Both the position numbers and the translations under genes were made by a program. DNA of 64,000 nucleotides from Desulfitobacterium dehalogenans ATCC 51507 (GTDB lineage: Bacteria > Bacillota > Desulfitobacteriia > Desulfitobacteriales > Desulfitobacteriaceae). The notes under the pieces are model-generated. The model did no database searches. It had not been told where the DNA came from and was given only the letters and a program-made list of their open reading frames with translations. Shown in pieces: positions 6,068 through 58,621 of this stretch. Within the stretch, counting starts at the first letter, position 1. Each line of letters starts with the position of its first letter. The stretch spans positions 4,154,001-4,218,000 of the forward strand of contig NC_018017.1 of assembly GCF_000243155.2 (NCBI RefSeq). The letters are read 5' to 3'.

Positions 6068-6068
6068 A

Positions 6069-6685: not shown

Positions 6686-6778
6686 AACGTTCACCTCTAA
6701 GGATATACTTACCCGGAGCGAAAGAATTTAGACCAAATATAAAATAGTTCTCTATTTTCTCTCATTGTAGACGAAACC

Positions 6779-7204: not shown

Positions 7205-7224
7205 AATAACACCCCACCTCTAAC

Positions 7225-8014: not shown

Positions 8015-8022
8015 TATCCTGA

Positions 8023-40136: not shown

Positions 40137-40607
40137 TTACGCTTCATCAAATAACTCAACAACCTCCAGCGGCTCAAAACAAATCAGATAACTCGCCCAC
40201 TCAACCCGCAGACCGTGCTTTTCCTTGTAATAAGATAAAGCGTCTTCTAAGAAGCCTTCCGTCACATCCATATATTCAGCAAATTCATATCTGCTCCTGA
40301 TCCCCTCTCTGTAAGCCCCTACAAAGCTCCGGAGGGGGATTAGTTTTTCATAGGCCATGCGTCTGGCTAATCTCTCTTGCTTCCGATTCCTTATTTTATG
40401 CTGGTCCAGAATATCTCCCACTGAAGTAAGATAGTGGGCCTGCTCTTCGGCAAGGGTACAGGCTTTTTCCCGTTCTGTCTCTATGTTTCGGTTAAGCCAG
40501 ATTATTTTATCGCTATATAAGCCTTTGATTCTGGGCAGCAGAGAGACTTCATAAACTCCAACTTCCTGTTGAGCCAGCTCAGCGCAAAGGGTTTCGTACA
40601 AAGTCAT
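40137..40607 (-). CDS. ImmA/IrrE-like protein of the tailocin control region
   Basis: 156-residue protein resembling ImmA/IrrE metalloproteases that cleave phage-type repressors. The putative zinc motif reads LAEEQAHYLT: the last His is present, the first of HExxH is replaced by Glu, as in several phage-borne members. ATG 40607 is chosen because AGAGGTG precedes it. It follows the repressor gene by about 12 nt in the same operon, the usual repressor-protease pairing. Whether it is catalytically active is unclear. Confidence 0.75.
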   Translation of the reverse strand: MTLYETLCAELAQQEVGVYEVSLLPRIKGLYSDKIIWLNRNIETEREKACTLAEEQAHYLTSVGDILDQHKIRNRKQERLARRMAYEKLIPLRSFVGAYREGIRSRYEFAEYMDVTEGFLEDALSYYKEKHGLRVEWASYLICFEPLEVVELFDEA

Positions 40608-40618
40608 ATCTATCACCT

Positions 40619-41986: not shown

Positions 41987-42412
41987 ATGGCTGGAATCCA
42001 GCAGCTTTTGGCGGAGAACTACCCTGACCATACGATCACCATGGATCTCCACCCTGAGCCCTTAGAGCGTCCCAGCTTCATGATTGAACTTGTGACGGCA
42101 GACCGTTCCCCCGTGAATTGTAAGACAGTTCAAGAGACGGTCTATTTTACGATTACTTGCTTTGATATCACGGATGATGATCCTGGCAATACGACCAATC
42201 TCTTATTGATCCAGCAAGGTGTGCTTGATCTTTTCCGAGCCGGGTATCTGTCCGTCCAAGATAGAAAAATCTCTGTCGCGGCCAGCCCAGGAGGCCGCAA
42301 CGCTGATCAAGCCTATGTGGATCTGCAGTTTGAATACTTTGAGGATCGTTCAGACGGACGGAATATAACGCCATTAATGAAAGAGGTCTATACGACCATA
42401 AAGGAGGAATAA
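41987..42412 (+). CDS. phage tail terminator-like protein
   Basis: 141 residues (GIQQLLAENYPDHTITMDLHPEPLERPSFMIELV ... YVDLQFEYFEDRSD), a pattern typical of small tail-completion proteins that precede the sheath gene in PBSX-like clusters. No clear ribosome site lies before the ATG; an ATT or TTA start in the GGGGGAGCAAC region is possible and would add a few residues. It caps the distal end of the tube, still needed in a headless particle. Confidence 0.6.
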   Translation: MAGIQQLLAENYPDHTITMDLHPEPLERPSFMIELVTADRSPVNCKTVQETVYFTITCFDITDDDPGNTTNLLLIQQGVLDLFRAGYLSVQDRKISVAASPGGRNADQAYVDLQFEYFEDRSDGRNITPLMKEVYTTIKEE

Positions 42413-42415
42413 ACA

Positions 42416-43486
42416 TTGGGACTCCCAAACATCAATATTAAATTTAAGACAACGGCTGCTGCAGCTATTAAACGCTCGCAAAAGGGGATTGTTGCCATTA
42501 TTTTGAAGGACGCTGCCCAGACAGCTCAAGGGATGCATGTACTAACCAATGTAACCCAGATCCCCGCAACCCTGGGAACACTGAATAAGGATTATATCAG
42601 CCGCACATTTTTGGGCTATGTGCACCCGCCGCGCAAGGTGCTTGTCTATGTGCTGCCTGACACGGCTGAGAATCTTGCCGCCGCTTTAAGCCATTTGGCT
42701 ACGCAGACCTTTGATTATGTCGTAGGTCCCCCGGACTGCACTGCTGCCCAGGCGACAGAGATTACCTCATGGGTAGCCGCTCAGCGCGCCAACGGATTGA
42801 CACCTAAAACTGTTCTGCCCCATAAGGCAGAGGATAGCGAAAGTGTTATCAACTTCACAACTGCTGGCATTAAAGTGGGTGAAGATACCTACGATGCCCC
42901 AGGATATTGCTCACGAATCGCCGGGTTAATCGCCGGTACTCCCCTGACCATCAGCTGCACTTATGCCCCATTGCCTGAAATTACCGACGTGACCAGACTG
43001 GCCAAAGGGGACATGGATACAGCAATCGACCATGGGGAGTTTATTGTCTTCCACGATGGAGAGAAAGTGAAAGTCGGGCGGGGAGTGAACAGCCTGCAAA
43101 CGACTAACCCTAGCAAAGGAGAGATTTTTAAGAAGATCAAGATTGTGGAAGCCGTGGATATGATCCGCAACGATATCAAGATGACCGCTCAGGATAACTA
43201 TATCGGCAAATATGCCAATAGTTACGATAATAAATGCCTGCTGATTACAGCAATCAGCGGCTATTTCGCTCAATTGGAGCTGGACGGGATTCTGCAGGCA
43301 GGGAGCAGCTCGGTGGGTATCGACATAGAGGCTCAGGAGGCTTATCTGCAGGCTGCGGGAGTGGATACCTCTGCTCAGTCCGAACAGGACATCAAGGAGG
43401 CTAACACCGGGGATAAGGTCTATCTCAAAGCCAGCATCAAAATTCTGGATGCTATCGAGGATATCAACCTGGATATTGTGATTTAA
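42416..43486 (+). CDS. contractile tail sheath protein (XkdK-like)
   Basis: 356-residue tail sheath subunit of the Phage_sheath_1 family. Segments such as FKTTAAAAIKRSQKGIVAIILKD at the start, VLPHKAEDSESVINFTTAGI, YCSRIAGLIAGTPLTISCTYAPLPEITDV and the C-terminal VYLKASIKILDAIEDINLDIVI fit XkdK-type sheaths. It is shorter than Bacillus XkdK, as in diffocin-type systems. Start TTG 42416 after AAGGAGG. Contraction of the sheath drives the tube through the target envelope. Confidence 0.88.
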   Translation: MGLPNINIKFKTTAAAAIKRSQKGIVAIILKDAAQTAQGMHVLTNVTQIPATLGTLNKDYISRTFLGYVHPPRKVLVYVLPDTAENLAAALSHLATQTFDYVVGPPDCTAAQATEITSWVAAQRANGLTPKTVLPHKAEDSESVINFTTAGIKVGEDTYDAPGYCSRIAGLIAGTPLTISCTYAPLPEITDVTRLAKGDMDTAIDHGEFIVFHDGEKVKVGRGVNSLQTTNPSKGEIFKKIKIVEAVDMIRNDIKMTAQDNYIGKYANSYDNKCLLITAISGYFAQLELDGILQAGSSSVGIDIEAQEAYLQAAGVDTSAQSEQDIKEANTGDKVYLKASIKILDAIEDINLDIVI

Positions 43487-43501
43487 GGAGGAAATGAATA
43501 A

Positions 43502-44197
43502 ATGGATAGTGCAAAAAGAGTGATGTCTGGTACCTGGGGTGAAACTTTGCCCTCCTGATTAGTAATAATTGGGTAATAAAGCGGGAGAATTCAGAGAAAA
43601 CCTAAGGCATTTATGCTATGGCAACTCTGAGCCGAGCCAAGCGAAGCCTGAAAGTAGCTTGGAAGGTGCAACGACTAATGGGTGAGGAAGGCAACCAATA
43701 AGCCCAACACGAGTACCCGCCACCCTCAATGGGTGAAGATATAGTCTGAACTATATGGAAACATATAGAGCTGTGGGATAAATAGCCCGCAGGATAACAT
43801 AATGGAAGTCTGGCTGGATAACGCCTATGTGGGCGAATGCTACGGCATGCAGGCTAAAGTAAGTTTTAATAAAGAAGATGTGCAAATTTGCGGCCGGATG
43901 GCTACGGATAAAAAAGTCTCCAGTATCAGCTGCACAGGCTCCTTGCGGATGCACAAAGTTTCCAGTCGGATGGCTAATGCTATTGGCGCATCTATCCGCA
44001 ACGGTCGAGATCTGCGTTTCGTAGTGATCTCCAAGCTGAATGACCCGGATGCCTATGGTGCTGAGCGGGTTGTGCTGAAAAACGTGAGCTTCGACGATCT
44101 GACACTGGCCGATTGGGAAGTAGCCACCAATGGGAAAATCGAAGCTCCCTTTACCTTTACGGATTATGAACTTCTTGACGCTGTGGAGGCGAGATAA
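43502..44197 (+). CDS. tail tube protein (XkdM-like), split by a group I intron
   Basis: The coding sequence is in two exons: 43502-43540 (13 codons, MDSAKRVMSGTWG, behind AAGGAGG) and 43805-44197. Joined in frame they give 143 residues beginning MDSAKRVMSGTWGEVWLDN, matching XkdM, whose family start is similarly short then SGxxGxVxxxxx. The second exon contains NKEDVQICGRMATDKKVSSISCTGS and FTFTDYELLDAVEAR. Without splicing the first exon runs into a TGA five codons in. Exon 2 alone would start with an ATG at 43802 that is really the last three intron bases. Confidence 0.85.
43541..43804 (+). ncRNA. group I self-splicing intron in the tail tube gene
   Basis: 264 nt, no homing endonuclease. 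P1: exon GGGGU pairs with GCCCU (43549-43553), with U-G at the splice site. P10: exon GAAGU pairs with ACUUU just before it. P3: GGGTA (43571-43575) with TACCC (43714-43718). P4: TTCAGAG with CTCTGAG (43590-43596, 43625-43631). P6: CCAAGC (43637-43642) with GCTTGG (43657-43662). P7: GACTA (43673-43677) with TAGTC (43742-43746). P8: CACCC/GGGTG (43721-43735). P9: CTATATG-GAAA-CATATAG (43751-43768). The last base is the terminal G. The extra helix region between P7 and P3 suggests subgroup IA. Confidence 0.93.
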
Positions 44198-44720
44198 TGG
44201 ATACTTTAGAGCTGCTGCTTAAAGGGGACCGGCCCAATATGCCGGAGAAAGAAATTAAGTTAAAGCGATTGAGCAAAGCCTGCGGCGGGGACATTATCTT
44301 CCGGCTGCGAGCCCTTAGCTTCAACCGGGTGGCCGAGATTAAGAATAGTCATGCCGGCGGCGATATGGAGGTCCATATTCTCTTAGCCGGCGTCATCTCT
44401 CCCGATCTGAAGTCGGAGGAGCTTAAGCAAAAATATAATGCGGTGACGCCCTCGGAAATGATCAAAACCATGCTCCTACCGGGGGAAATCGAGGATATCT
44501 CCCGGGAAATCGAGAAGCTGAGCGGCTATCGGGTTACTACGGTGGAAGAGGTTAAAAAAAAATAGAGTCGGATCCTGAGATCCAGCTCATGTACTATTTG
44601 TTTGTCGAGAAGAACATGACCCCAGGCTCTTATTATAACCTGCCTCCAGGGGAAAAGGTGATGATAAGAGCCTTCTTTGAAATGCACATGGAATCCCGCA
44701 GCTCGCGAATGAAAACATAG
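44197..44720 (+). CDS. tail assembly chaperone with -1 frameshift extension (XkdN-like)
   Basis: The unshifted product is 44197-44565, 122 residues, ending VEEVKKK at TAG. Its stop is preceded by nine A (44554-44562). A -1 slip there reads on as IESDPEIQLMYYLFVEKN ... SSRMKT to TAG at 44718-44720, giving a 174-residue fusion. Paired short and long tail chaperones made by -1 frameshifting, just before the tape measure gene, are a standard feature of tailed phages. The start overlaps the tube gene stop by one base. Confidence 0.85.
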
Positions 44721-44738
44721 CCGATTGGAGGTGAACAT

Positions 44739-46769
44739 ATGGGGAGAAATATCAGTATAGCCATTTCAGTCCAGGATAATTTTACAAAGAAAATCACTAC
44801 GATGCGCGAGGCGAGCCATAAATTTAATAAAGATCTTGCTGATCTTTCGTCTAAGCTTGATAGTTTAAATAAAAAGAAAATCAGTCTCAAAGTTGATACA
44901 GCTAAAGCAAACGAAGCCTTAAGAAAAGCAGAAACGCGATTTGCCAAAACAGGCGAAGCCGCTGCTAATATGTCCACGGTGATAAACCAGATAAATGTTG
45001 ATCATGCCAGAACAAGCCTGAACTTACTTGAGAATGATGCTCATCAGACAGAAAAGACTCTTCATAGTCTTGACAAGACAATCGGGAAAATGGGAAATAA
45101 GGCAGGCATTTCAGGTGTCTCAGGTGGTGGCAAGGCAGGAATTTCAGCTGGCGGCAAGGCAGGCTTGATCGGCACTTTGGCGGAGGCAGGAATAGCAAGA
45201 TTTTCGGGGGACATTGCACAGATTGCGGATGCGGCGATTGGCAGCGCATTTGGTTCAAATACAAATACAATGGTCCAAAGCACGATAGGCAGTGCAATTA
45301 GCGGAGCCGCCATGGGGAGCATGATAGGAGGGCTACCCGGAGCAGCCGTTGGAGCTATTGCGGGCGGAGTAATGGGGTTTGCAAGTGGAAAAGCGTCCAA
45401 CTATTCCAAAGAAGACGATATCTTCAAAAGCAGTGTACGCGACCAATATGAGGCCGTAAAGCAACAAGAGTCCGATACCCTCACTCGCGGCATAGGTATT
45501 GCAGGTAGCAGAGAGCAGACGCAGTTGGCCTTTGGCAGAGTGTTGGGCAGTGATGAGACGGCTAAAGATTTCCTGGCGGAGATGGCAGACTTTGCCGTGG
45601 CTACACCCTTTGACTATGATCAGCTCGCTGCTATAAGCAAGACTATGCTTGCTAATGGCTACAAGCAGAACGAAGTGTTTGAGGAACTTGTCAAAATCGG
45701 GGATGCCGGAATGGCTTTGGGGATGAGCAGTGAAGATATGAACTACGTAGCCGCAAGCTTGGGGAGCCTGAGGTCCACCGGTCAAACTACGCTGGAGTCC
45801 CTGAGCCCCTTGCTTGAAAGAGGCATCCCAGTTTTTGAATATTTAGCCAAAGCTTCCGGCAAAACAGAGGCCCAAATACAAGACATGGTCTCGAATGGGT
45901 TAATTCCCGGTGTCGAGGCCGCTAAAGCAATCGCTGATTATATGGGCACAGAGCACGCCGGAAATATGGAGAAGCAAAATCAAAGCTACCAAGGGCTTAT
46001 GAGTAACTTGGAAGATGCTCAGGGCAATATGGATGCGGCTATGGGGGAGGGCTATACCCATGAACGCCAAAAAGGTATTCAAGCTCAGATCGACTACTTT
46101 GAGGGGGAAAGCGGCGAGAAGCTAAAGGAAGCCAACCGGATGATCGGTGAGTGGAAAGCGTCCCTGGAGAACGACCATGAAGCCGCTATTCGCAACTCTA
46201 TGGATGAGATGATGGATTCCGATGAATATAAGCAAGCAGCGGCAGAGGGCAACCGGGTTGAGATGGGAAAACTCCTTGCCGAGGCCCAGGCAAAAGGAGA
46301 GAATGAATATAAAGCCAGTGAAGGGTATCAGCTACAGCTCGCTACTGATCAGGAACTTATAAAAAAAATCCGTGAAGACCAATCATTAAAAAAAGAGTAT
46401 TGGAATACGGGCAAAGCTCTGCAAGAGGAATTTGAAAAAGGGCGTAGGGCCGTTTCGGCCGCTTCTCCTTATGGCTATGGCGATGCCTATGATTATGGCT
46501 GGAATGGCCAGGTAGCAGGGTCTGTACCGGGGTCAGGTAAAGTGGCTGCCTATGGCATAAGCTATGTACCCTATGATAATTTTCCAGCGCTTCTCCACGA
46601 GGGCGAGCGGGTTCTGACCGCCAGTGAAGCACGGGCCTTAAAAGGTTCCGGGGCAAGCAATATAAGCATCACCGGCAACAGCTTCATCATCAGGGAGGAA
46701 GCGGATATCGGCAAAATAGCCCGTGAGCTGGCCCGGAACATGGCGAGAGCCTCTGCACTGGCCATTTGA
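44739..46769 (+). CDS. tail tape measure protein
   Basis: 676 residues. N-terminal coiled coil (ISIAISVQDNFTKKITTMREASHKFNKDLADLSSKLDSLNKKK), a Gly/Ala-rich hydrophobic stretch near 185-225 (SAISGAAMGSMIGGLPGAAVGAIAGGVMGF), a tape-measure domain (VLGSDETAKDFLAEMADFAVATPFDYDQL ... SPLLERGIPVFEYLAKASG), a charged helical part, and a C-terminal LLHEGERVLTASEARAL. ATG 44739 behind GGAGGTG. Its length sets the tail length; at about 1.5 angstrom per residue that would be roughly 0.1 micrometre (inference). Confidence 0.88.
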   Translation: MGRNISIAISVQDNFTKKITTMREASHKFNKDLADLSSKLDSLNKKKISLKVDTAKANEALRKAETRFAKTGEAAANMSTVINQINVDHARTSLNLLENDAHQTEKTLHSLDKTIGKMGNKAGISGVSGGGKAGISAGGKAGLIGTLAEAGIARFSGDIAQIADAAIGSAFGSNTNTMVQSTIGSAISGAAMGSMIGGLPGAAVGAIAGGVMGFASGKASNYSKEDDIFKSSVRDQYEAVKQQESDTLTRGIGIAGSREQTQLAFGRVLGSDETAKDFLAEMADFAVATPFDYDQLAAISKTMLANGYKQNEVFEELVKIGDAGMALGMSSEDMNYVAASLGSLRSTGQTTLESLSPLLERGIPVFEYLAKASGKTEAQIQDMVSNGLIPGVEAAKAIADYMGTEHAGNMEKQNQSYQGLMSNLEDAQGNMDAAMGEGYTHERQKGIQAQIDYFEGESGEKLKEANRMIGEWKASLENDHEAAIRNSMDEMMDSDEYKQAAAEGNRVEMGKLLAEAQAKGENEYKASEGYQLQLATDQELIKKIREDQSLKKEYWNTGKALQEEFEKGRRAVSAASPYGYGDAYDYGWNGQVAGSVPGSGKVAAYGISYVPYDNFPALLHEGERVLTASEARALKGSGASNISITGNSFIIREEADIGKIARELARNMARASALAI

Positions 46770-46793
46770 TTTTGGAATGTCTTTTCTTGCCCC

Positions 46794-46817
46794 AAATTCC
46801 CAAACGCTTGGGAATTT
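46794..46817 (+). other. perfect 10-bp hairpin after the tape measure gene
   Basis: AAATTCCCAA and TTGGGAATTT are separated by ACGC in the 183-nt gap that also contains an intrinsic terminator. No T-run follows. It may be an RNA processing or protein-binding site. Confidence 0.5.
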
Positions 46818-46901
46818 CACCTCCATGGCCTCACCTCCCTTCAGAGGAACCCCAACCACACTGCACCCTTTTGCTCTACCAAACTAAACTATATACCCTA
46901 C

Positions 46902-46928
46902 AAGCACTCTGCAATGGAGTGCTTTTTT
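46902..46928 (+). terminator. intrinsic terminator inside the tail operon
   Basis: AAGCACTC (46902-46909) pairs with GAGTGCTT (46917-46924), followed by further T. It sits 25 nt before the next gene start, and no new promoter is evident, so it may be a partial or regulated terminator. Confidence 0.7.
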
Positions 46929-46952
46929 CTACCCTAAAAGGAGGCGAACTGT

Positions 46953-47591
46953 TTGCGAAAATTCATCTTCAAAGACGGAAACCGGGAACTCCTGCTCCCG
47001 GTTACGCCCCCGTCTTTTGCAATTGGCCATGGCATAAGGATAGAGACCATCCATATTCATACTCTCGGTGATGTTAATATAGCGGGCTATGGGACCCTTG
47101 CCTCAATCAAGATAGACTGCCTCTTCCCTGCCCGGCCCTACCCCTTTTCCCTTGCCGATGAGAATCCCTATACCTATGTGAAGACCTTTCAAAAATTCTG
47201 CGATAAAGGCAAGGTGATTCGCTTTATTATTCCTGATACCCCCGTTAATCTCCCGGTTTTAGTGGAATCCATTACTTACTCGGAGCGGGACGGAACCCAT
47301 GATGTTTACGCAACCCTTGCTCTGCGCGAATACCGACCATTAAGCGCCGTAAAGGTTGAGCAAAGCGGTATGGAAAACCAATCCAGGCCGGCAGCTGTAA
47401 CCGTAGTCAAGTCCTCGCCTTATATCGTCGAGAGCGGGGATACCCTAAGCGCCATCTGCCGAAAGTTTTATGGGGATGCGAACCTATATCCTAAAGTAGC
47501 TGACGCCAATAAGATTACCAATCCTCATTTGATATTTCCAGGGCAAAAGCTCGACATGCCGGATAAAAGCCAACTGGTACAAGGGGGGTGA
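46953..47591 (+). CDS. LysM-containing baseplate-proximal protein (XkdP-like)
   Basis: 212 residues; the N-terminal two thirds resemble XkdP tail proteins, and the C-terminal 50 residues form a LysM domain (YIVESGDTLSAICRKFYGDANLYPKVADANKITNPHLIFPGQKLDMP). TTG start at 46953 behind AAAAGGAGG. In PBSX-type clusters this gene follows the tape measure gene and links tape and hub. Confidence 0.85.
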   Translation: MRKFIFKDGNRELLLPVTPPSFAIGHGIRIETIHIHTLGDVNIAGYGTLASIKIDCLFPARPYPFSLADENPYTYVKTFQKFCDKGKVIRFIIPDTPVNLPVLVESITYSERDGTHDVYATLALREYRPLSAVKVEQSGMENQSRPAAVTVVKSSPYIVESGDTLSAICRKFYGDANLYPKVADANKITNPHLIFPGQKLDMPDKSQLVQGG

Positions 47592-47600
47592 CCCATTTCC

Positions 47601-48608
47601 GTGGTTAAACTGTTTTTAAAAAATAAAGAGGGGAAATTCGACATAAGTCAGTTGGTCCCCCAGATAACCTGGTCCGGAAATTATCAGCAATGTGCCCGAT
47701 CCCTGGATTTCAGTCTGCTGTCCTCTCCCCTTGACAAACACATCCCCGTGGTCCAATGCGACCTGGGAAATGCTATCCTGCTCATGCAGGACGATACAGT
47801 ATTGTTCGAAGGTTATATCTTTGAGCGCACTAAAAATACAGGGAGCAGCACCATAGACATAGCCTGTTTTGACCGGGGAATCTACCTCAAACGCAACAAA
47901 ACATCGTATAAATTCACGAATCAGACTCCGGAGGCGATTGCCAAAAGGATCTGCGCGGATTTTGATATCGAAATTGGGGAAATCGTTGACACAAGGGTTA
48001 AAATCAGCCGTAATTTTCTTGGCTCGACTCTCTATGACATCATCCAGACCGCCTACACCCTGGCCTCGTATCAGACCAAGAAGAAATATTATCTTGCCTT
48101 TAAGGGCGCCAAGCTTTATGTCCTGGAAAAGAAGGTTACCGATGAGACTTTGGTGATTGAGGGCGGCTCCAATCTCATGGATGCCAGCACATCGGAAAGT
48201 ATCAGTAATCTGATTAATCAGGTTACGCTCTACGATAAAGACGACAACTTTATCCGCCATATCAAAAACGACGCCTTGATTGAGCTGTACGGATTGATGC
48301 AGGACTCTATCCGGCAGTCAGATGATGAAGATGCCGGAGGGAAAGCCCAGGAGATGCTGGATAACAATGGCCTGCAGCAGAAGATCACCATCAATAATCT
48401 TGGAAATGCGGCCAATGTCTCAGGGGGCACCGTAGTCGTCCGGGAACCTTATACAGGGCTTTACGGACTGTTCTACATTGATCAGGACACCCATACCTGG
48501 AAGAACGGCCTTTATCTCAATCAATTGGTCATCAACTTTAAAAACATGATGGACGAAAAGGAGGTGGGCTCATTGCCGAACAAGAGCGGAGAAAAGACGG
48601 CCGGTTGA
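47601..48608 (+). CDS. baseplate hub protein (XkdQ-like)
   Basis: 335-residue homologue of the gpD/XkdQ hub family (LVPQITWSGNYQQCARSLDFSLLSSP, FEGYIFERTKNTGSSTIDIACFDRGIYLKRN, and NLINQVTLYDK). It organises the base of the tube. GTG 47601 is used although no clear ribosome site is seen; the XkdP stop overlaps the GGGGGGTG that may serve as one. Confidence 0.82.
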   Translation: MVKLFLKNKEGKFDISQLVPQITWSGNYQQCARSLDFSLLSSPLDKHIPVVQCDLGNAILLMQDDTVLFEGYIFERTKNTGSSTIDIACFDRGIYLKRNKTSYKFTNQTPEAIAKRICADFDIEIGEIVDTRVKISRNFLGSTLYDIIQTAYTLASYQTKKKYYLAFKGAKLYVLEKKVTDETLVIEGGSNLMDASTSESISNLINQVTLYDKDDNFIRHIKNDALIELYGLMQDSIRQSDDEDAGGKAQEMLDNNGLQQKITINNLGNAANVSGGTVVVREPYTGLYGLFYIDQDTHTWKNGLYLNQLVINFKNMMDEKEVGSLPNKSGEKTAG

Positions 48609-48658
48609 AGACTCTCATTCAGCTTGGGGCCTTAGTACAGAGAAAGGAGTGACATGCA

Positions 48659-49039
48659 ATGGAAGACAATCCTTTTACAACACTTCTGGAGACTATGCGC
48701 GGCGAAGCCAAAGGACAAATACCTACAGCTTATCGCTTAGGAAAAGTCGTCAACACCAATCCTCTCAAAGTGAGCGCTTCAGGAATACTTTTGTCAGGGG
48801 ATGACCTGCTGATCAACGCAGGAATTGGGGAGCGGACTGAAACTCTATCTATGTCTGAACTATCAGGTGATCTCACCGGAACCCTTCATGGCGACTCGGC
48901 CAATCTGGCCATTGCCGGTGGCCATCTATCCGCTGCCGCCAGGGTAAAAACCAGTTTGGCTGAAGATGACACTGTCCTGCTGCTCTCCCTTGAGGATAAT
49001 CAGAAATTTATCGTACTCTGCAAGGTGGTGAGCCTATGA
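48659..49039 (+). CDS. XkdR-like baseplate protein (DUF2577)
   Basis: 126 residues; the opening (NPFTTLLETMRGEAKGQIPTAYRLGKVVNTNPLKVSASG) and ending (DDTVLLLSLEDNQKFIVLCKVV) are DUF2577-like. Behind AAAGGAG. It overlaps the next gene by 4 nt. Structural role in the baseplate by context. Confidence 0.8.
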   Translation: MEDNPFTTLLETMRGEAKGQIPTAYRLGKVVNTNPLKVSASGILLSGDDLLINAGIGERTETLSMSELSGDLTGTLHGDSANLAIAGGHLSAAARVKTSLAEDDTVLLLSLEDNQKFIVLCKVVSL

Positions 49040-49452
49040 GCCTTTTTCCCATGATTCAGCCGGAGGCGGCAAGGGTTGAAATAGCGTTACCCCTCTGCCG
49101 GGAAGTGGACTGGGACTTTGAACTGGATAGTCCGATCTATAAAAACGGCTCACCCTCTTTTGTCACCGGGGCAAGGGCCGTTTTGGTTTGGGCATGGAAC
49201 GCTCTCCATACCCCCAGGTACCGGTATGAGATCTACACCTGGAATTATGGCAACGAAGTGGAGCAGTTGATTGGCCAGCCTTTTACAGATGACCTCAAAC
49301 GTTCTGAGGTAAGCCGATTTGTAAGGGAATGCCTGTTAATCAATCCATATATTACAGATGTAGCCGATATAACAGTTAACTTTGCCAATGAAACAGTAAA
49401 GGTTGGCTGCAGAATAATCACAGTTTATGGGGAGGTGAATCTTAATGTTTGA
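49036..49452 (+). CDS. XkdS-like baseplate protein (DUF2634)
   Basis: 138 residues; the DWDFELDSPIYKNGSPSFVTGARAVLVWAWNALHTPRYRYEIYTWNYGNEVEQLIGQPF pattern is the DUF2634/XkdS (gp25-like) family. It overlaps both neighbours, so it is part of a tightly coupled baseplate module. Confidence 0.85.
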   Translation: MSLFPMIQPEAARVEIALPLCREVDWDFELDSPIYKNGSPSFVTGARAVLVWAWNALHTPRYRYEIYTWNYGNEVEQLIGQPFTDDLKRSEVSRFVRECLLINPYITDVADITVNFANETVKVGCRIITVYGEVNLNV

Positions 49453-50485
49453 AACGATTACTCCTGAAAGTATCAAAGAAAACATCCTAAATGAACTTGA
49501 GCAGGTGGATGTCCGGGAAGGAAGCTATACGAATAATCTTGTCAGCCCCACCGCTTTGGCGATCTGGAAGCTTTACGACAGTTTGAATGCCCTTATCCCC
49601 ATGGTCTATGTGGATGAAACCTCCGGAGTATATATTGACAAAAAGGCTGCCAATTATGGGATCACCAGAAAATCCGGTACAAAGGCTTCCGCAGTGCTTC
49701 ACTTCACAGGAGTTGACGGTAAGGTGGTTCCTAAAGGGGCGGTTTTTCTAACAGGTGACGGCTTGGAATTTGTGATTGAGTCGGCGGTTACGCTCACCGC
49801 CGGAGCAGCCAGCACCACAGCCATAGCGGCCGAAGCAGGCGAAGCCTACAATGTTCTCAGCGGCAGCATTACTCAGCAGATTGTCAGCATCTCGGGACTT
49901 ACCGGCGTAACCAATGAAGCTGCTGTCGGGGGCACAGACCCGGAAAGCGATAAAAGCCTGGTGGAGAGGCTCTATGCCTATCTTCGCAAGCCGGCGACCA
50001 GCGGCAATGTTTATCATTACGAACAATGGGCTTTGGCTGTTGATGGAGTGGGCGGGGTAAAGGTAGCTCCGCTTTGGAATGGACCGGGCACGGTTAAGGT
50101 CCTGATTGTAAACCCTGCTAAAGCTCCTGTGGATCAAGAGGTTGTGACGCGTTGCGCTGACCATATCGATCAGAATAGACCCATTGGAGCAACGGTGACC
50201 GTAGAAAGTGCCTCGGCACTTACGATTAATGTGGAGGCAACCATTACTATTGAAAGTACAACCACCAAGTCCGCGGTGAAGGAAGCTTTTGCGAACAGCC
50301 TGAACGCTTATTTGCAGAGCATTGCTTTTGAAAAGTATGAACTGATTTACAATCGCCTTGCTTTTATGCTCCTGGATATCGAAGGGGTCATTGACTATGC
50401 AGATCTAACCGTTAATGGCGGCACATCAAATATTACCATTGCCGCTAATGAGGTCCCTGTAGCAGGAATGGTGGTGATCAGTTAA
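49445..50485 (+). CDS. baseplate J-like protein (XkdT)
   Basis: 346-residue wedge protein of the baseplate J family: ESIKENILNELEQVDVREGSYTNNLVSPTALAIWKLYDSLN, the GIDxxAxxYGI-type segment IDKKAANYGITRKSGTKASAVLHFTG, and GGTDPESDKSLVERLYAYLRKPATSGNVYHYEQWALAVDGVGGVKVAPLWNGPGTVKVLI. Its stop overlaps the next start by one base. Confidence 0.9.
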   Translation: MFETITPESIKENILNELEQVDVREGSYTNNLVSPTALAIWKLYDSLNALIPMVYVDETSGVYIDKKAANYGITRKSGTKASAVLHFTGVDGKVVPKGAVFLTGDGLEFVIESAVTLTAGAASTTAIAAEAGEAYNVLSGSITQQIVSISGLTGVTNEAAVGGTDPESDKSLVERLYAYLRKPATSGNVYHYEQWALAVDGVGGVKVAPLWNGPGTVKVLIVNPAKAPVDQEVVTRCADHIDQNRPIGATVTVESASALTINVEATITIESTTTKSAVKEAFANSLNAYLQSIAFEKYELIYNRLAFMLLDIEGVIDYADLTVNGGTSNITIAANEVPVAGMVVIS

Positions 50486-51030
50486 TGGCGGAGCTGATTG
50501 AGTTATTGCCGGCCAATTACAAGAACAGTCAGGAAGTCGTAGAACTGCAGGAGGCTTTGGGAAATCAGATTGCGGCTGCAGCGGCGGCTAAAGCCGATGT
50601 GTTTAAGCAACTGGATGTTAACACAGCTACCTGGGGACTAAGATACTGGGAGCAGGCCTATGGGCTTAAAACAGATGTCTCAAGATCTTATGATTACCGC
50701 AGAACAAGACTATTAAGCAAGATGCGCGGCCAAGGTTCAACAACAAGCTCGATGATCAAAAATGCCGCGGAGAGCTTCAGCAATGGGGAAGTAGAAATTG
50801 CCGAAGATAACGCCAATTATCAATTTACTGTGAAATTTATAGGGACCAAAGGAATACCGCCCAATCTGGATGATCTTAAAGATGCTGTTGAGGAAATAAA
50901 ACCGGCTCATCTGAAAGCCATCTATGAATTTACTTATCTGGTGTGGTATGAGCTTGATGCTAAAAACTGGACTTGGGCTCAGTTCGATGCTCAAGGTCTT
51001 ACCTGGAATGAATTGGAGGTGCTTAGCTGA
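50485..51030 (+). CDS. XkdU/YmfQ-like baseplate protein
   Basis: 181 residues; MAELIELLPANYKNSQEVVELQEALGNQIA, a WGLRYWEQAYGLKTDVSRSYDYRRTRLLSKMRGQG core and a Trp-rich tail (WYELDAKNWTWAQFDAQGLTWNELEVLS), typical of the DUF2313 (YmfQ) family at the baseplate/fibre junction. Confidence 0.85.
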   Translation: MAELIELLPANYKNSQEVVELQEALGNQIAAAAAAKADVFKQLDVNTATWGLRYWEQAYGLKTDVSRSYDYRRTRLLSKMRGQGSTTSSMIKNAAESFSNGEVEIAEDNANYQFTVKFIGTKGIPPNLDDLKDAVEEIKPAHLKAIYEFTYLVWYELDAKNWTWAQFDAQGLTWNELEVLS

Positions 51031-51431: not shown

Positions 51432-51454
51432 TAAAGGAAGAGGTGGACAATACC

Positions 51455-52213: not shown

Positions 52214-52225
52214 GGAGGGCTTAAA

Positions 52226-54022
52226 ATGGCCACATACAACACAGTTATAAAAAAGCGCAATGCAACGAACAATGGCTGGGATTCCGTTTTGCCGATTACC
52301 ACTGCCGAGAATGTATTGATCAACGCCGAAGGAGATACTCTTGCTACGCACTTTGCGGAAAATGCGACATTACTTGATAATACAAACGTTAATAACTACG
52401 TGTTTAATACTGGTAAGAACATTACCCTGAAAAACATGCAATTATATAGTTTAAGGGTAAACCTATCATCAACGGGACCAGTAACAATTAAAATTGATAA
52501 TAACCCAGCCTTACCACTGAAAAACATTGCTACATCCACACAGCTTGGGGCTGGAAAAGTGAAGCAATGGCGAGTATTCCAAGTGTGGTATGATTCTTCC
52601 GTTCCTTGTTTTTTCTTGCGGGCTAGTTCGTCAGGTAATGCCGTTGCTGGTGACGTTCTGGCTGGAAAGACATTCAGCAACGATGATGGGACGGATTTAG
52701 TTGGAATAATCCCTATCAAAAATCCAGATTTTGCCGATTCAATCCCCGCGACAAGTGCAATGGTTTTTAATAATTGGGGAGATGGTAACAATTATGCGCT
52801 ATTCGGTATATCTCCAGGTACATTTATTGGTAGTGGGGTTAATTGGATTAGATGGTATCAACCTGATTTAGTTCCACAAAATATAAAAGCAGGTGTGTCT
52901 ATTCTTGGTGTAACAGGCACAGGTCCTAAATATGCTGTTGGTGATACACTATCACTAAGACTCGCTTTTAATAAGGCTCCTATAGTGACTCAGCGAAGTC
53001 AACCCAATGCTAGTGACACTTATGCTGATAGGATATTTAGTTATGATAACTACATTTTAAGATTACGCAATTATAGTTCCTACGCATACCTCCAAAATGT
53101 GCCTGGGTCATCTGCCTCATGGACAGTACAGAGTCCGCCTGTAACTGGAGGTTCTGGTAGCTATAACCGTATAAATCCTATAACTTTAACCAGAAATGGC
53201 TACTTATATTTCACTATATTTCAAGGGCTTAATGAATTGCAAAGGATACAATTTTCTAATGGCGCTACTATTAGAAGTGGTGTGGCGATTGGTCTAACAG
53301 GGACATTTGAAATCGCTTCTAGTGATGATTCATATGTGTATGTGGTAGGGTGTACACCTAGTGGTAATAATCCAACTATTGTCACTATTGAAAAGTATGA
53401 CCCTAATACTCTAGCTAGAATAGCAACTATCACATGCACAATACCTGGAAACCGTCCTATGCCTGCTTTTAGGGCATGTGTAGATTCTTCAGGATATATT
53501 TATATTGGATATAATATTGCTAGGTCCGGATATGCTAATTGTTGCCGGGATTATTATGCATATTGGGAGAATACTTTATGGAAATTTAACCCATCCGGTG
53601 GTAATCCTATTGTAACTTACACAATCGGCTCTAAACCAAGTAATACTACACCTAATCCTTCGGGTATGATTGAGGGTAATGGAAGAATGGGTATCTGTAA
53701 TGGTATAATCTATCAATCTGACCGTATAAATACTTTGCGATCATTCAATACATCTTTGCAACTGACGGGAACTGTAAGCACTCCAACTGCCGTTTATTAT
53801 AGTGATAGTGAAGAAATACGAAGAACACAAGATAATAGAGTACAAGTTAGATATAAGATATTTACAGGTAATTGTCAGCTTGTAGGTGATATAGAATCTG
53901 GTGGCGGTAATACGATAGACGATATTAAGTATATGGATGCAACTAATGCATATGGTATTTGGCGGAGTTATAGTTACGCATATCTGAATTCCATCGAACA
54001 TGGTTTAAAAATTGTAAGTTAA
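52226..54022 (+). CDS. large tail fibre / receptor-binding protein
   Basis: 598 residues. It shares the N-terminal attachment segment with the preceding fibre and then continues with beta-rich, Asn/Thr/Tyr-rich sequence resembling beta-propeller-like repeats (SFNTSLQLTGTVSTPT, WKFNPSGGNPIVTYTIG). The distal part is visibly AT-richer than the upstream tail genes, as expected for a swapped receptor-binding domain. It likely determines which strains the particle kills. Confidence 0.75.
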   Translation: MATYNTVIKKRNATNNGWDSVLPITTAENVLINAEGDTLATHFAENATLLDNTNVNNYVFNTGKNITLKNMQLYSLRVNLSSTGPVTIKIDNNPALPLKNIATSTQLGAGKVKQWRVFQVWYDSSVPCFFLRASSSGNAVAGDVLAGKTFSNDDGTDLVGIIPIKNPDFADSIPATSAMVFNNWGDGNNYALFGISPGTFIGSGVNWIRWYQPDLVPQNIKAGVSILGVTGTGPKYAVGDTLSLRLAFNKAPIVTQRSQPNASDTYADRIFSYDNYILRLRNYSSYAYLQNVPGSSASWTVQSPPVTGGSGSYNRINPITLTRNGYLYFTIFQGLNELQRIQFSNGATIRSGVAIGLTGTFEIASSDDSYVYVVGCTPSGNNPTIVTIEKYDPNTLARIATITCTIPGNRPMPAFRACVDSSGYIYIGYNIARSGYANCCRDYYAYWENTLWKFNPSGGNPIVTYTIGSKPSNTTPNPSGMIEGNGRMGICNGIIYQSDRINTLRSFNTSLQLTGTVSTPTAVYYSDSEEIRRTQDNRVQVRYKIFTGNCQLVGDIESGGGNTIDDIKYMDATNAYGIWRSYSYAYLNSIEHGLKIVS

Positions 54023-54036
54023 GAGGAGGAAATCAA

Positions 54037-54723
54037 ATGGCAGTATTTATTATGTACGAAGAAATTACCCCAGACAAGGCACGTGTGTTTTATCAAAATT
54101 ATACACCAAATGACCCTATCACCGGTGTTACAGAAGATATGTTGAGTAATGAAAATGCCCGAATGCTCAATTCAATTCCAGAGCCAGAACTTCAAAATGG
54201 ATATGTTTCAATTTTGTATATCAATCCAGAAACAGATGAGCTTTTTTATGAGTATTCAAGAAGTAATGATTACAATGGCGACATGAATTTAGAAGAATTA
54301 GAGCTATTAAAGAAGCAATTGAATTTAATTTCTCCATATCAAAATCCTTTATCGTTGGAAGAACATAAAGCCAATAAGGCCTATGAAATATCTAAAGAGT
54401 GTGAAGATGAAATCTTGTCCGGTTTTTATTCTGATGCCAGAGGTGAAATAGAATGGTATACCAATAGTAGAGATGATCAAAATAATTTAATTGGTCAAGC
54501 TACATTGGCTACTCTTAACCCTTCTTTTATTCCTCAGTGGAAAAGTGCCACGGAATATATCTGTACTGACTTTACAATGGAACAGATTATTAAGTTGTCA
54601 ACTGATGGTGCGGTCTTTAAAACTGAAAGAATTAAAGCTTTTGATATGCTTAAGGCGCAAATATTATCTGCTACAACTGTTGAAGAAGTAGAGGTGATAG
54701 AATGGACAAAAAAAGTTTGGTAA
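54037..54723 (+). CDS. XkdW/DUF4376-type fibre assembly protein
   Basis: 228 residues; the N-terminal MAVFIMYEEITPDKARVFYQN and C-terminal KAYEISKECEDEILSGFYSDARGEIEWYTNSRDDQNNLIGQ pattern matches DUF4376/XkdW-like proteins that follow fibre genes and probably assist folding. AGAGGAGG upstream. Its stop overlaps the next gene by 22 nt, linking fibre module and cargo cassette. Confidence 0.75.
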   Translation: MAVFIMYEEITPDKARVFYQNYTPNDPITGVTEDMLSNENARMLNSIPEPELQNGYVSILYINPETDELFYEYSRSNDYNGDMNLEELELLKKQLNLISPYQNPLSLEEHKANKAYEISKECEDEILSGFYSDARGEIEWYTNSRDDQNNLIGQATLATLNPSFIPQWKSATEYICTDFTMEQIIKLSTDGAVFKTERIKAFDMLKAQILSATTVEEVEVIEWTKKVW

Positions 54724-55145
54724 AATATCTTTTTATTATTGTTATGATTGGAATGGTTTACCTTTCATTAGAAGCTGTTTGGAAAGGATGGACGCATGTC
54801 AGTATGCTTTTTGTTGGAGGGATTTGTGGATTATTTATTGGTCTGCTTAATCAGAAAACAAACTTAAAAGTATATAAGCAAGTCTTAGTTGGTCTTCCAG
54901 CAGTTTTAACAATAGAATTATTTTCAGGATTGTTTATTAACAAATATCTAGGTTTTGCCGTTTGGGATTACTCTGATAAGCTTGGTAATGTCTTAGGTCA
55001 AATATGCCCACAGTATTCAATATTGTGGGTTCTCCTTATCCCTTTTGGGATATGGTTAGATGACTATATTAGGTGGAAATGGTTTAACGAAGGTAGTTAT
55101 TATCCTATATATGAAAATTATATAGAGCTAATAACCTTGAGGTAG
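54702..55145 (+). CDS. CmpB-like (ABC_trans_CmpB) membrane protein
   Basis: 147-residue polytopic membrane protein with four hydrophobic segments. The sequence GFAVWDYSDKLGNVLGQICPQYSILWVLLIPFGIWLDDYIRW is the hallmark of the ABC_trans_CmpB family, whose function is unclear. It lies inside the tailocin operon, AT-rich and unlike the tail genes. First gene of a three-gene cargo cassette. Confidence 0.7.
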   Translation: MDKKSLVKYLFIIVMIGMVYLSLEAVWKGWTHVSMLFVGGICGLFIGLLNQKTNLKVYKQVLVGLPAVLTIELFSGLFINKYLGFAVWDYSDKLGNVLGQICPQYSILWVLLIPFGIWLDDYIRWKWFNEGSYYPIYENYIELITLR

Positions 55146-55155
55146 GTGTTTTAGT

Positions 55156-55995
55156 ATGTATGAAAGGTTTACAATTATTTTAAGCAACTGGTGTAATCTT
55201 AGATGTCCATTCTGTTTACAAAATGCAACTGTAAACAATGGTAAAGAAATATCAGCAGAGAGCCTTATATCATTCTTTGAAAGTGGTAAGGTTGCTCCTA
55301 AAGTATTTAAGTTAACTGGTGGAGAACCATTATCCCCACAAGTTTATGAAAAGACTAAGAAGATTGTAGAGTATGCCATAAGTAAAGGCATAAGAACACA
55401 GCTTAATACAAATGGAACATATAAATTTACAGGCGATTTTGATAAAGAACTTCTTAATTTTCAGGTAAGCTTAGATGGTCTTAAAGAAAAACATGAGTCG
55501 TTAAGGGGGAACGGTACTTTTGAAAAAACAGTGAACTTTATTAAGAGAGTAACAAAAACGGGGTACAAAGTTAATATTATGCAAGTCCTTCAAGAAGAAA
55601 CTACTAGAGATGAGGTAGAAGAATTTATTAACTTCAGTGTAAATGAATTTAATATACATCCTAAATTTCAACGTATGGCCCCTTCTGGTAGAGCAAGTGG
55701 TAATAAAGAAGTTATAAATATTGATTATGATATGGATGAATTTATTGAAAACAAGGGGTGTAGTTGTAGAGGTGTAAAATATAAATGCACAACCCCAGAG
55801 GGTAAATCAACCCAAATAGGGATTGATCAACATGGGAATATTATCCCATGTCCATTGTTAGGTAAATATAAGTTTGGAACAATATTTAATTTCAACGAAT
55901 TCAAAATCAGACAAGAAATAAGCAGAAAGCTAAAGGGATGCACTTGTTGTTACCCTGATGGTTACAAAGGGGAGGTTAGTTTTGGACATATTTAG
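55156..55995 (+). CDS. radical SAM protein with SPASM-like C-terminus
   Basis: 279 residues. SAM-binding cluster motif CNLRCPFC at residues 13-20, KLTGGEP (the GGE motif), NTNGT and SLDGLKEKHESLRGNGTFEKTVNFI, a typical partial barrel. C-terminal Cys groups (GCSCRGVKYKC, IDQHGNIIPCPLLGKYKFGTI and GCTCCYP) resemble a SPASM/twitch auxiliary-cluster domain, found in peptide-modifying enzymes. No precursor peptide gene is seen next to it. AT-rich; the permease gene overlaps its end. Substrate unknown. Confidence 0.85.
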   Translation: MYERFTIILSNWCNLRCPFCLQNATVNNGKEISAESLISFFESGKVAPKVFKLTGGEPLSPQVYEKTKKIVEYAISKGIRTQLNTNGTYKFTGDFDKELLNFQVSLDGLKEKHESLRGNGTFEKTVNFIKRVTKTGYKVNIMQVLQEETTRDEVEEFINFSVNEFNIHPKFQRMAPSGRASGNKEVINIDYDMDEFIENKGCSCRGVKYKCTTPEGKSTQIGIDQHGNIIPCPLLGKYKFGTIFNFNEFKIRQEISRKLKGCTCCYPDGYKGEVSFGHI

Positions 55996-57070
55996 TTTGA
56001 GCCTATGGAGTAAGATACTCACAAACATTACTTTAATGTTTTCTTTAACTATATTGATAATCAGTGCAAATAAAGTAGGTTTGCTTGAATATCTTTACAT
56101 GCCATTAAAGAATATAAAAAGTTCCCGTATTATCATGCTTGCATGGTTTATGATTGCTACAATCTTAAGTGCATTCACGCTTGATCTCACATTAGCTTTA
56201 ATATTAACGCCTATTGTTTTATTCTATGCAAATTCTAGAGGATTAAGTAAAGTAGAGATATTACTCGCCACTACCTGGGGTAACATGGTAGGAAGTGAAT
56301 GGACTTACTTCGGCGGTGGAGATACAATTATTGGCTGGACTTTACTTGAACAATTTACTGGTGAACGATTAGATATCTTAACCTGGGGAAGCCTTTTTTG
56401 GCTTCCTTCTTTTTTATCTTTGGTAGGTACGGCTATTTGCTTACTTATGTTTATTAAAAATACATATGTAGAGCCCCAAGAAGTACAGTTCAAAAAACCG
56501 TCATTAAAAACTGCCGTTATCGGAGCGCTTTCAGTTATAGGTATTATTGGAGCTTTAACAGGCTTTAGTCCTTTATACATGTGTTTAATTACTTTAACGT
56601 CTTTGGTCATAGCTAGGCTTGGCAAAGATGAACTGAAGAATATGCCACTTAAGGGAGTTTATATATGGACTTTCTGCATTATAATAGGTTCCCTTATCGG
56701 TAACTTAGTTAAAAGTCATTATCAGCTTATCTTACCTGAATACTTGTACTCTTTTGCAGGGATTGTTTTGATTTTAACTATTATCTGTGGACTAACAAAT
56801 ATTATGACTAATACAGGTCTTACTACTATTATTCTTCCTCTTGTTATGGCTAGTCAATTTGTCGATAAAATCTGGTTGTATGTTTTAGTAACAAAAGCTA
56901 TCAGCATGTGTTACCTTACTATTTTTGCCAACTCAGGTTTGGCAGTTTCGTCAAGCTATGGACTATCGCAAAAAGATATGTTTTTAAAAGGGTTACTTGT
57001 CGTGTTTGTACAGTTAGCTATATTCTCACTATACTTTTACTTTATGAGAGGACATATATCAATATATTAG
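55982..57070 (+). CDS. SLC13/ArsB-like permease
   Basis: 362 residues with about ten hydrophobic segments. A SEWTYFGGGDTIIG re-entrant-like motif in the first half and a LTNIMTNTGLTTIILPLVM motif in the second half resemble ion-transporter (DASS/ArsB/NhaD) superfamily repeats. TTG 55982 behind GGGGAGG is preferred to the ATG at 55958; it overlaps the radical SAM gene by 14 nt, implying coupled translation. AT-rich like its partners. Substrate unknown. Confidence 0.7.
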   Translation: MDIFSLSLWSKILTNITLMFSLTILIISANKVGLLEYLYMPLKNIKSSRIIMLAWFMIATILSAFTLDLTLALILTPIVLFYANSRGLSKVEILLATTWGNMVGSEWTYFGGGDTIIGWTLLEQFTGERLDILTWGSLFWLPSFLSLVGTAICLLMFIKNTYVEPQEVQFKKPSLKTAVIGALSVIGIIGALTGFSPLYMCLITLTSLVIARLGKDELKNMPLKGVYIWTFCIIIGSLIGNLVKSHYQLILPEYLYSFAGIVLILTIICGLTNIMTNTGLTTIILPLVMASQFVDKIWLYVLVTKAISMCYLTIFANSGLAVSSSYGLSQKDMFLKGLLVVFVQLAIFSLYFYFMRGHISIY

Positions 57071-57123
57071 AGATAATAAGGAAATTCTTACTACGTAATA
57101 TACCCTTTTTGCGCAGCACCGCA

Positions 57124-57147
57124 ACGCCAACACAGGGCGTATTTTTT
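57124..57147 (+). terminator. probable terminator after the cargo cassette
   Basis: ACGCC (57124-57128) pairs with GGCGT (57136-57140), followed by ATTTTTT. Short stem, but it sits in the gap that ends the AT-rich cassette, before the lysis genes. Confidence 0.5.
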
Positions 57148-57235
57148 ATACCCCAAATCCAGGCCCGAACCCCGCCAGAGGTGGCGAGGAGTGGGGCTCG
57201 GAGCTTTCATGTTTAAAAGAGGTAGGTGATAGCCT

Positions 57236-57532
57236 TTGGACTTTACACTTATTACTGCCCTCATTGGGGTAGCGGCTACTTTGTCCGGAATCATCTTAGG
57301 CTGGTCGGCAAGAGCTAAGGAAGCAGAGAAGGAAGTCAGAAAAGATGCCGAAATCGACACAGCCCTCCGTACAGATATGGAGTATCTTAAGCGCGGGGTA
57401 GATGATATCCGACTTGAACAGCGTACCCAAGGGCAGCGCGTAGATGCCATGGGTGAACGCCTTACCCGGGTTGAAGAGTCATCAAAACAGGCTCACAAGC
57501 GGATTGACCGCATCGAGCAGAAAGAAGAGTAA
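57236..57532 (+). CDS. XhlA-type lysis-associated membrane protein
   Basis: 98 residues: one N-terminal transmembrane segment (LITALIGVAATLSGIILGW) and a long amphipathic coiled coil (DMEYLKRGVDDIRLEQRTQGQRVDAMGERLTRVEESSKQAHKRIDRIEQKEE). TTG start behind AGGTAGGTG. The architecture resembles XhlA-type hemolysins that act with holins in PBSX-type lysis modules. Confidence 0.7.
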   Translation: MDFTLITALIGVAATLSGIILGWSARAKEAEKEVRKDAEIDTALRTDMEYLKRGVDDIRLEQRTQGQRVDAMGERLTRVEESSKQAHKRIDRIEQKEE

Positions 57533-57534
57533 AC

Positions 57535-58245
57535 ATGCCGCAAATCGAATGGGTAGGTACCCCCAACTTTAGGTATGGCCGCAATGCCCTCCAGCCCTTG
57601 GCCATTGTCAATCATATCACTGCCGGCTATTATCCGGGCTGCTTAGACTGGATGCAGCATCCTGGCTCCCAGGCAAGTGCACATTATTTGGTCTTAAGAA
57701 ACGGCCGCATACTACAACTGGTCAAAGAGGAAAACACAGCCTGGCATGCAGGTATAGCGAATAAACCCAATTGGAACCTGTATGATGGAACGAATCCGAA
57801 CTACTATACCATCGGCATTGAACACGAAGGAATGCCTGGAGATGAGCTGACAGAAGCTCAGTATCAGTCCACCCTATGGCTCCACAAACAGCTCATAACC
57901 AAGTACCCAGCGATCACCATTGATAACCGGCATATCATTGGCCATTACAGAATTGACAGTATAAACAGACCAAACTGCCCAGGGATTAAGTTTCCCTGGG
58001 CTAAATTATTTGCTGATTTGAAAGGAGAGCATGACGTGGATCATCTCGTAATCTATGCCGATGGAGACGTAGGAGCAGCGCTTTTGCTCAGCTTTAAGCT
58101 AAAATGCCCGATGGTCCATAAAGCCTTTGCTGAGAAAATCCAGGCCAAACATAAGTACTGGGTTGGGGTGCAGGGGACGAACGGCGACGGAAATGTCTAC
58201 TATGCCGGGAGCGACCGGATAGAAACCGCGAAGTTAGGTTTGTAA
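57535..58245 (+). CDS. N-acetylmuramoyl-L-alanine amidase (endolysin)
   Basis: 236 residues: Amidase_2 domain, with zinc-ligand candidates in AIVNHITAGYYPGC, HYRIDSINRPNCPG and SAHYLV, and a short C-terminal region (VIYADGDVGAALLLSFKLKCPMVHK) resembling a cell-wall-binding repeat. It starts 2 nt after the XhlA-like gene. Cleaves the peptide from the glycan of peptidoglycan to release particles. Confidence 0.88.
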   Translation: MPQIEWVGTPNFRYGRNALQPLAIVNHITAGYYPGCLDWMQHPGSQASAHYLVLRNGRILQLVKEENTAWHAGIANKPNWNLYDGTNPNYYTIGIEHEGMPGDELTEAQYQSTLWLHKQLITKYPAITIDNRHIIGHYRIDSINRPNCPGIKFPWAKLFADLKGEHDVDHLVIYADGDVGAALLLSFKLKCPMVHKAFAEKIQAKHKYWVGVQGTNGDGNVYYAGSDRIETAKLGL

Positions 58246-58258
58246 GGAGAGATCGGCC

Positions 58259-58621
58259 ATGGAAACCGCATTAGGTTATATCCAGAACTTTTGGGGGCTG
58301 CTGCTTGTTGTGGCAGTCTTTATTATTTATCTGATCAGCCTGGGAAGGACCAAGGCGGGGAAGATTGTGCTCTCGTTGATGCTGAGGTTGGAGAAACAGG
58401 CTGAGGAGTACGCGCTGCAGACCGGGGAAGAGAAGTTTGGTTTTGTGGTGGAAAAGGGCTATCAGCTTTTGCCCAAATATGTACGGTTGATCTTTAGTTA
58501 TAAAATGTTCGTTGAATTGGCAGATAGACTCTATGATGATGCCAAGAATTATTTAATGAGCCTGGAGGGAAAGACCCTTACCGCGCCAGTTAAGGACGAC
58601 AAGGAAGCTGATCCCGGATAA
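58259..58621 (+). CDS. LLH-type holin-like protein
   Basis: 120 residues with one N-terminal transmembrane segment (FWGLLLVVAVFIIYLISLG) and a charged helical cytoplasmic part (LRLEKQAEEYALQTGEEKFGFVVEKGYQLLPKYVRLIFSYKMFVELADRLYDDAKNYL), the pattern of LLH-family phage holins. Behind AAGGAGAG. Last gene of the tailocin; wecB ends on the other strand 13 nt on. Confidence 0.72.
   Translation: METALGYIQNFWGLLLVVAVFIIYLISLGRTKAGKIVLSLMLRLEKQAEEYALQTGEEKFGFVVEKGYQLLPKYVRLIFSYKMFVELADRLYDDAKNYLMSLEGKTLTAPVKDDKEADPG

Follow-up and report, generated by a model that had tools for sequence, protein, structure and literature searches.

Accounts of tailocins usually present them as purely mechanical weapons that vary only in their fibres and chaperones, and variable cargo at fibre loci is already known. 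What, then, is the role of a radical-SAM enzyme and a permease encoded inside the headless contractile tail cluster of Desulfitobacterium dehalogenans ATCC 51507? We analysed this question in a window of 64,000 nucleotides (the whole stretch of DNA studied; contig NC_018017.1, positions 4,154,001 to 4,218,000), in which a first-pass annotation made from the sequence alone had described an AT-rich cargo cassette of three genes. According to the translated open reading frames (ORFs), the tail cluster is flanked by ATP-synthase genes and a UDP-GlcNAc 2-epimerase gene. Its features, in window coordinates, are as follows.

40137..41404, minus strand: gene for a Peptidase_M78/ImmA-IrrE-like protein (Pfam PF06114) and gene for an HTH repressor (HTH_3)
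41987..51030, plus strand: headless contractile tail cluster with tail terminator, sheath, tube, tape measure, LysM, YQBQ-like, gp25-like, baseplate J and Gp48 genes (Pfam)
52226..54022, plus strand: tail fibre, its N-terminal 48 aa conserved with the same-genus locus L134 and its distal part replaced
52369..57205, plus strand: AT-rich swapped block holding the fibre tip, DUF4376, CmpB, radical-SAM and permease genes (blastn breakpoints against L134; GC profile)
54037..54723, plus strand: DUF4376 protein of the tail-fibre assembly type (PF14301, 1e-12; phrog_1348 tail fiber, 1.5e-23)
54702..55145, plus strand: CmpB-like integral membrane protein with about four transmembrane segments (PF06541, 3.3e-9; phrog_20274, 8.9e-42; hydropathy)
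55156..55995, plus strand: radical-SAM enzyme (PF04055, 5.4e-19; alignment of five family members)
55982..57070, plus strand: ion-transporter-superfamily permease with a likely TTG start judged from the sequence (PF03600; predicted fold)
57124..57140, plus strand: terminator-like GC hairpin followed by a T-run (ACGCCAACACAGGGCGT-ATTTTTT), between the permease and the lysis-side genes
57236..58621, plus strand: membrane/coiled-coil protein in the XhlA position (phrog_1863), Amidase_2 endolysin and holin-like protein (ORFs, Pfam, PHROG)

The cluster has the gene content of an R-type tailocin, known here from genes alone: sheath, tube, baseplate, fibre and lysis genes are present, and no capsid or terminase gene was seen among the ORFs of the window. 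The PF06114/HTH_3 gene pair is likely to be the SOS-type switch of the tail genes. In its headless contractile layout, its sheath (9e-89 to the solved sheath CD1363) and the distal placing of its fibre and lysis genes, the cluster resembles the diffocin, the R-type tailocin of Clostridioides difficile, from which it differs in the radical-SAM/permease cargo. We know of no such cargo in diffocins, and a search of the open-licence literature for radical-SAM enzymes with tailocins returned no relevant paper and, for phages with SPASM proteins, none that was close.

The first-pass annotation had placed a non-tail cassette of three overlapping or abutting, AT-rich genes between the fibre-assembly and lysis genes of a tailocin operon, and the ORF order and composition bear this out. 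The CmpB-like ORF (147 aa), the radical-SAM ORF (279 aa) and the permease ORF (55958–57070, 370 aa counted from ATG) are all intact. For the permease, a TTG start at 55982 behind GGGGAGG is probably used rather than the ATG at 55958, giving a 14-bp overlap with the end of the radical-SAM gene. The DUF4376 and CmpB-like genes overlap by 22 bp, a 10-bp gap separates the CmpB-like from the radical-SAM gene, and the GC content of the cassette is 31–36%, compared with 46–52% in the lysis genes behind it. The 147-aa protein passed the Pfam gathering score for CmpB (PF06541, 37.5 bits versus 25.9). Predicted promoter signals in the cassette were not in excess over shuffled sequence, which, together with the tight junctions, fits co-transcription with the tail operon.

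Comparison with a locus of the same genus (L134, genome G002) located the boundaries of the foreign DNA. L134 carries the same tail cluster at the same chromosomal site, with proteins 95% (repressor), 92% (sheath) and 92% (wecB-like flank) identical to those of the window. By blastn, the two sequences are 96% identical up to position 52368, at about codon 48 of the fibre gene, and homology returns at 57206 with 92% identity. The 4,837 bp in between are swapped in L134 for another fibre tip, a 114-aa ORF, a 41-aa ORF and a 337-aa tail-type protein, and this replacement segment contains neither the radical-SAM nor the permease gene. Low GC likewise sets in within the fibre gene (39% at 52300, 34% at 53800) and extends at 31–42% across the whole of 52369–57205, DUF4376 gene included. 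The homology breaks and the low GC across the block argue that the cassette was exchanged within a fibre-tip swap, so that the foreign unit, as drawn from these comparisons, is the block in which fibre tip, DUF4376 gene and cassette were replaced together. The proposed AT-rich import thus stands for the three genes, whereas its boundary does not, since the fibre tip and the DUF4376 gene belong to it too. Also as the first-pass annotation had suggested checking, the cassette is variable between related tail loci: in addition to L134, seven Desulfosporosinus contractile-tail loci (L135–L141) have no radical-SAM and permease pair. Such an exchange resembles the localized replacement of receptor-binding genes described for Pseudomonas tailocins (PMC12090994).

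Searches elsewhere identified a smaller conserved unit than the three genes proposed. A radical-SAM gene followed by a permease gene was found in four loci besides the window, namely a prophage of Desulfosporosinus acididurans and three IMG/VR loci (L096, L105 and L106), with radical-SAM proteins 36–49% and permeases 33–54% identical to those of the window. The order of the two genes and their position on the strand of the tail genes are the same in all five loci, and the genes are adjacent in each apart from L106, where a 217-aa ORF lies between them. Every pair occupies one slot, behind the fibre and chaperone genes and ahead of the lysis side. Conservation of gene order therefore holds for the last two genes of the cassette. 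Of the loci compared, the window alone has the CmpB-like gene, which has no counterpart in the four relatives, and the three-gene set was rejected as a unit. The conserved unit is the radical-SAM and permease pair, an exchangeable two-gene module in the fibre–lysis slot of five tail loci.

Two further gene products were considered around the pair. Of the phage records that matched the CmpB protein, the two examined, deposited as ‘Bacteriophage sp.’ (MT837418 and MT836253; loci L011 and L012), look like pieces of bacterial chromosome rather than phage and were set aside; their ORFs include an RNA polymerase sigma factor and proteins resembling tRNA nucleotidyltransferase and DNA polymerase III delta. 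The 217-aa ORF of L106 (5303–5956) looks like a methyltransferase and had no Pfam, NCBIfam or PHROG match.

Radical-SAM members of the family scored 418–466 bits and the next radical-SAM protein 80 bits; the other 79 loci of the genome-contig scan, general radical-SAM proteins at 80 bits or less, were rejected as members. Among the loci compared, no permease outside the five reached an E value of 1e-3, the genome search gave one weak general transporter (50 bits) beyond the family, and the permease had no match in public phage records or plasmids. A class search (83 genomes) and samples of 398 and 397 genomes returned only D. acididurans besides the window's genome; this species belongs, by the grouping of the database, to the same bacterial family and is the nearest named genome with the pair. 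Viral scans with single proteins gave no match, alignment-based scans found the three IMG/VR members, and a further pattern scan of viral contigs added none. In the genomes and viral contigs searched neither gene was found alone, though the family numbers five and wider sampling could yet turn up lone copies.

The backbones that carry the pair are diverse: alongside the diffocin-like R-type cluster of the window there are two more contractile clusters and a non-contractile one, all three apparently headless, and a siphophage prophage. By ORF reading, the D. acididurans prophage has terminase, portal and capsid genes. L096 and L105 are contractile clusters in which no head genes were seen and regulator-like genes lie on the far side of the tail genes. 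The contig of L106 (L157) carries, with ORFs named by reading, a repressor, an ImmA-like gene, a sigma-like gene, non-contractile tail genes, a fibre and the pair, adjoins a chemotaxis-receptor gene and shows no head genes; it apparently has the layout of an F-type tailocin. Four of the five loci thus appear headless, although IMG/VR contigs may be incomplete.

Several features of these loci were observed in passing. L105 has two tandem fibre modules (2986–9241), one fibre with the pair and then a second fibre set, the start of which (7246–8364) is 95% identical in DNA to window 51241–52359. To the regulator side of its sheath gene (3165–8490), the L096 contig (L164) has two further sets of a fibre and a 113-aa protein as well as an XhlA-like ORF, an unusual layout for a tail cluster. 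The region around the hairpin in the window (57091–57149) is 85.7% conserved in L105 (9790–9851), although the flanking genes differ; a conserved hairpin with a T-run could be a terminator or attenuator ahead of lysis. A phrog_28171 domain is common to the fibres of the window (52226–54022), L096, L105 and L106, and three of these four fibres end in a glycine-rich tip.

The distribution of the pair bears on whether it has anything to do with the weapon. It might be a passenger of a recombination hot spot between fibre and lysis genes, that is, a host-metabolism or detoxification pair (for example for an anion or arsenite). It is AT-rich and sporadic: of 398 genomes sampled from the phylum, two have it. 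Cargo is often found in the spaces next to fibre and lysis genes, and the superfamily of the permease includes arsenite and dicarboxylate transporters. However, all five copies sit within tail loci, and the coupled packing with tail genes and the recurrence of the same slot in unrelated backbones favour a link to tail expression over a mere passenger, which we regard as unlikely.

The permease family indicates what kind of transport might be involved. An SLC13/ArsB-type permease had been proposed from the sequence, and both the Pfam match and the predicted fold support it. The window protein narrowly passed the cut-off of PF03600 (CitMHS; 33.9 bits versus 31.9), its relatives scoring below it (19.7–30.4 bits). 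Its AlphaFold2 model (pLDDT 68) matched SLC13, INDY and ArsB structures with Z scores of 15–26 (NaDC1, 25.8; ArsB, 17.7), and the protein is predicted to have the elevator fold of the ion-transporter superfamily; a five-row profile of the family found no match among PDB sequences. Compared with known members (SLC13/DASS, CitMHS, ArsB), the pair permeases form a subfamily of their own in which an SNT-like Na+ motif is only partly kept (TNT, TNS, TDS and TRS variants) and a GGGD motif with a nearby Glu is invariant, as are the acidic residues E105 and D113. The family lacks the paired SNT motifs and the TIGR00785 score of DASS Na+ symporters: the L105 permease scored 9.1 bits against a cut-off of 198.6, and no match was listed for the window permease. 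The two invariant acidic residues and the degenerate SNT motif fit coupling to protons rather than sodium, which is our guess.

By its sequence, the enzyme itself belongs to the radical-SAM superfamily (PF04055, 69.4 bits versus a cut-off of 29.5). The CxxxCxxC motif (C13, C17, C20) is invariant in all five members and the GGE motif is kept. An auxiliary-cluster-like C terminus, which the first-pass annotation had read from the window protein, gains support from the family: the C211-x15-G227-x4-C232 motif, together with C202, C262 and C264, is invariant in all five and follows, at the sequence level, the SPASM/twitch pattern C-x(9-15)-G-x(4)-C with a downstream Cys. The region is predicted to be a twitch/SPASM auxiliary-cluster domain; this assignment rests on the motif because the model of the C terminus is poor (pLDDT below 50 from residue 207). 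The closest solved relative by sequence is SkfB (7.5e-15); by fold the closest are SkfB and SuiB, with viperin also among the matches. Although the cysteine motif and the best solved relatives are those of SkfB/SuiB-type RiPP maturases, the window enzyme has no visible leader-peptide-binding extension and no precursor gene beside it. Among the matches listed, scores were far below every NCBIfam equivalog cut-off (for the maturase StsB, 60.6 bits versus 625), and no short ORF with a ribosome site was found at 53950–57300; a distant precursor is possible. In the four relatives, the gene just ahead of the radical-SAM enzyme is an ORF of 45–46 aa, which was rejected as a conserved peptide precursor: it is CD1375-like, a named small-protein family whose cut-off one of the four exceeded, and it has no counterpart in the window cassette.

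Viperin among the fold matches, and matches of the family to the PADLOC pVip model (3e-8 to 4e-14), raised the alternative of a viperin-like antiviral enzyme making modified nucleotides. Many other radical-SAM models match equally well or better, StsB at 1.2e-16 versus pVip at 4e-14 for the window protein (from libraries of different size), and neither the twitch-type motif of the C terminus nor the set of five auxiliary cysteines is known from viperins. We consider this alternative highly improbable and set the defence identity aside, the similarity being non-specific.

Gene trees suggest that the two genes have histories of their own. In the radical-SAM tree, the window and D. acididurans are separated from a clade of L096, L105 and L106 (bootstrap 100), whereas the permease tree joins the window to L105 and L106 to D. 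acididurans. For either gene, the alignment rejects the tree obtained from the other (AU p = 2.9e-5 and 0.016); only five tips enter this comparison, and one is a long branch. It seems that the genes were reshuffled and yet kept paired; because they are always paired in spite of the conflict, selection for the pair, or joint function, is the best explanation.

The L096, L105 and L106 clade coincides with one type of fibre tip and chaperone, which are homologous in these three loci. This match would suit a maturation enzyme for which the fibre, its chaperone or the CD1375-like protein is the target of post-translational modification, and radical SAM/SPASM enzymes do often act on peptides. Yet the match may simply reflect the linkage of neighbouring genes, tips are unrelated between the window and D. 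acididurans although their radical-SAM proteins are 49% identical, the window is without the CD1375-like gene, and the permease is left unexplained. A role in fibre maturation therefore seems improbable to us.

The position of the pair could also point to self-protection or superinfection exclusion, in which the two proteins would alter the envelope component recognized by the linked fibre, so that kin or the lysogen is left unbound, by analogy with serotype-converting prophage genes. The cassette lies inside the segment swapped with the fibre tip and always beside a fibre, and one copy of the module is carried by a prophage. Producers of tailocins are resistant to the particles they release, which in Gram-negatives has been ascribed to the surface (PMC12090994). 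The same disparity of fibre tips, however, counts against this alternative, as does a module without a glycosyltransferase, flippase or teichoic-acid gene, and transcription in a late operon would leave uninduced cells unprotected. We rate it as rather unlikely, if worth keeping in mind. The likeness to prophage fibre-locus cargo and serotype-converting genes lies in non-structural genes exchanged by recombination beside a receptor-binding fibre; the enzymes differ, and the pair occurs mostly in headless, tailocin-like clusters.

The best explanation, to which we assign a probability of roughly 0.4, is that the pair is a cargo module of tailocins, an enzyme and a transporter acting beside the weapon. 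Under this cargo reading, relief of the repressor/ImmA-type switch would lead to transcription of the pair together with the tail genes. The radical-SAM enzyme would hold one or more auxiliary clusters besides its catalytic [4Fe-4S] cluster and would modify a small anionic metabolite or a short peptide, and the elevator-type permease would carry substrate or product over the cytoplasmic membrane, export being the simplest case. The first-pass annotation had conjectured production or modification of a small molecule or peptide, or resistance to it, any of which may apply. What is made may then work alongside the tail weapon, directed at competitors or protecting kin, rather than as a component of the particle, with the CmpB protein of the window and the methyltransferase-like ORF of L106 as optional tailoring or membrane partners. 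Against the cargo reading, it is not obvious why a cell that switches these genes on only shortly before its lysis would need a transporter, and the window cassette contains neither a precursor-peptide ORF nor the CD1375-like ORF. More tentatively, we consider it possible that tailocin fibre loci hold a dedicated module of radical-SAM chemistry and transport whose product works with the weapon, as a co-released effector or as self-immunity matched to the fibre, and which moves together with fibre tips among tailocins, contractile or not, and a prophage.

If the cargo reading is true, some tailocins also carry chemistry, as a second effector or as built-in kin resistance. To our knowledge, the self-resistance of Gram-positive tailocin producers is little understood, and the module offers a concrete gene pair to test for it. 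The recurrence of the pair in five tail loci suggests that such weapons sometimes travel with a small chemistry kit of their own.
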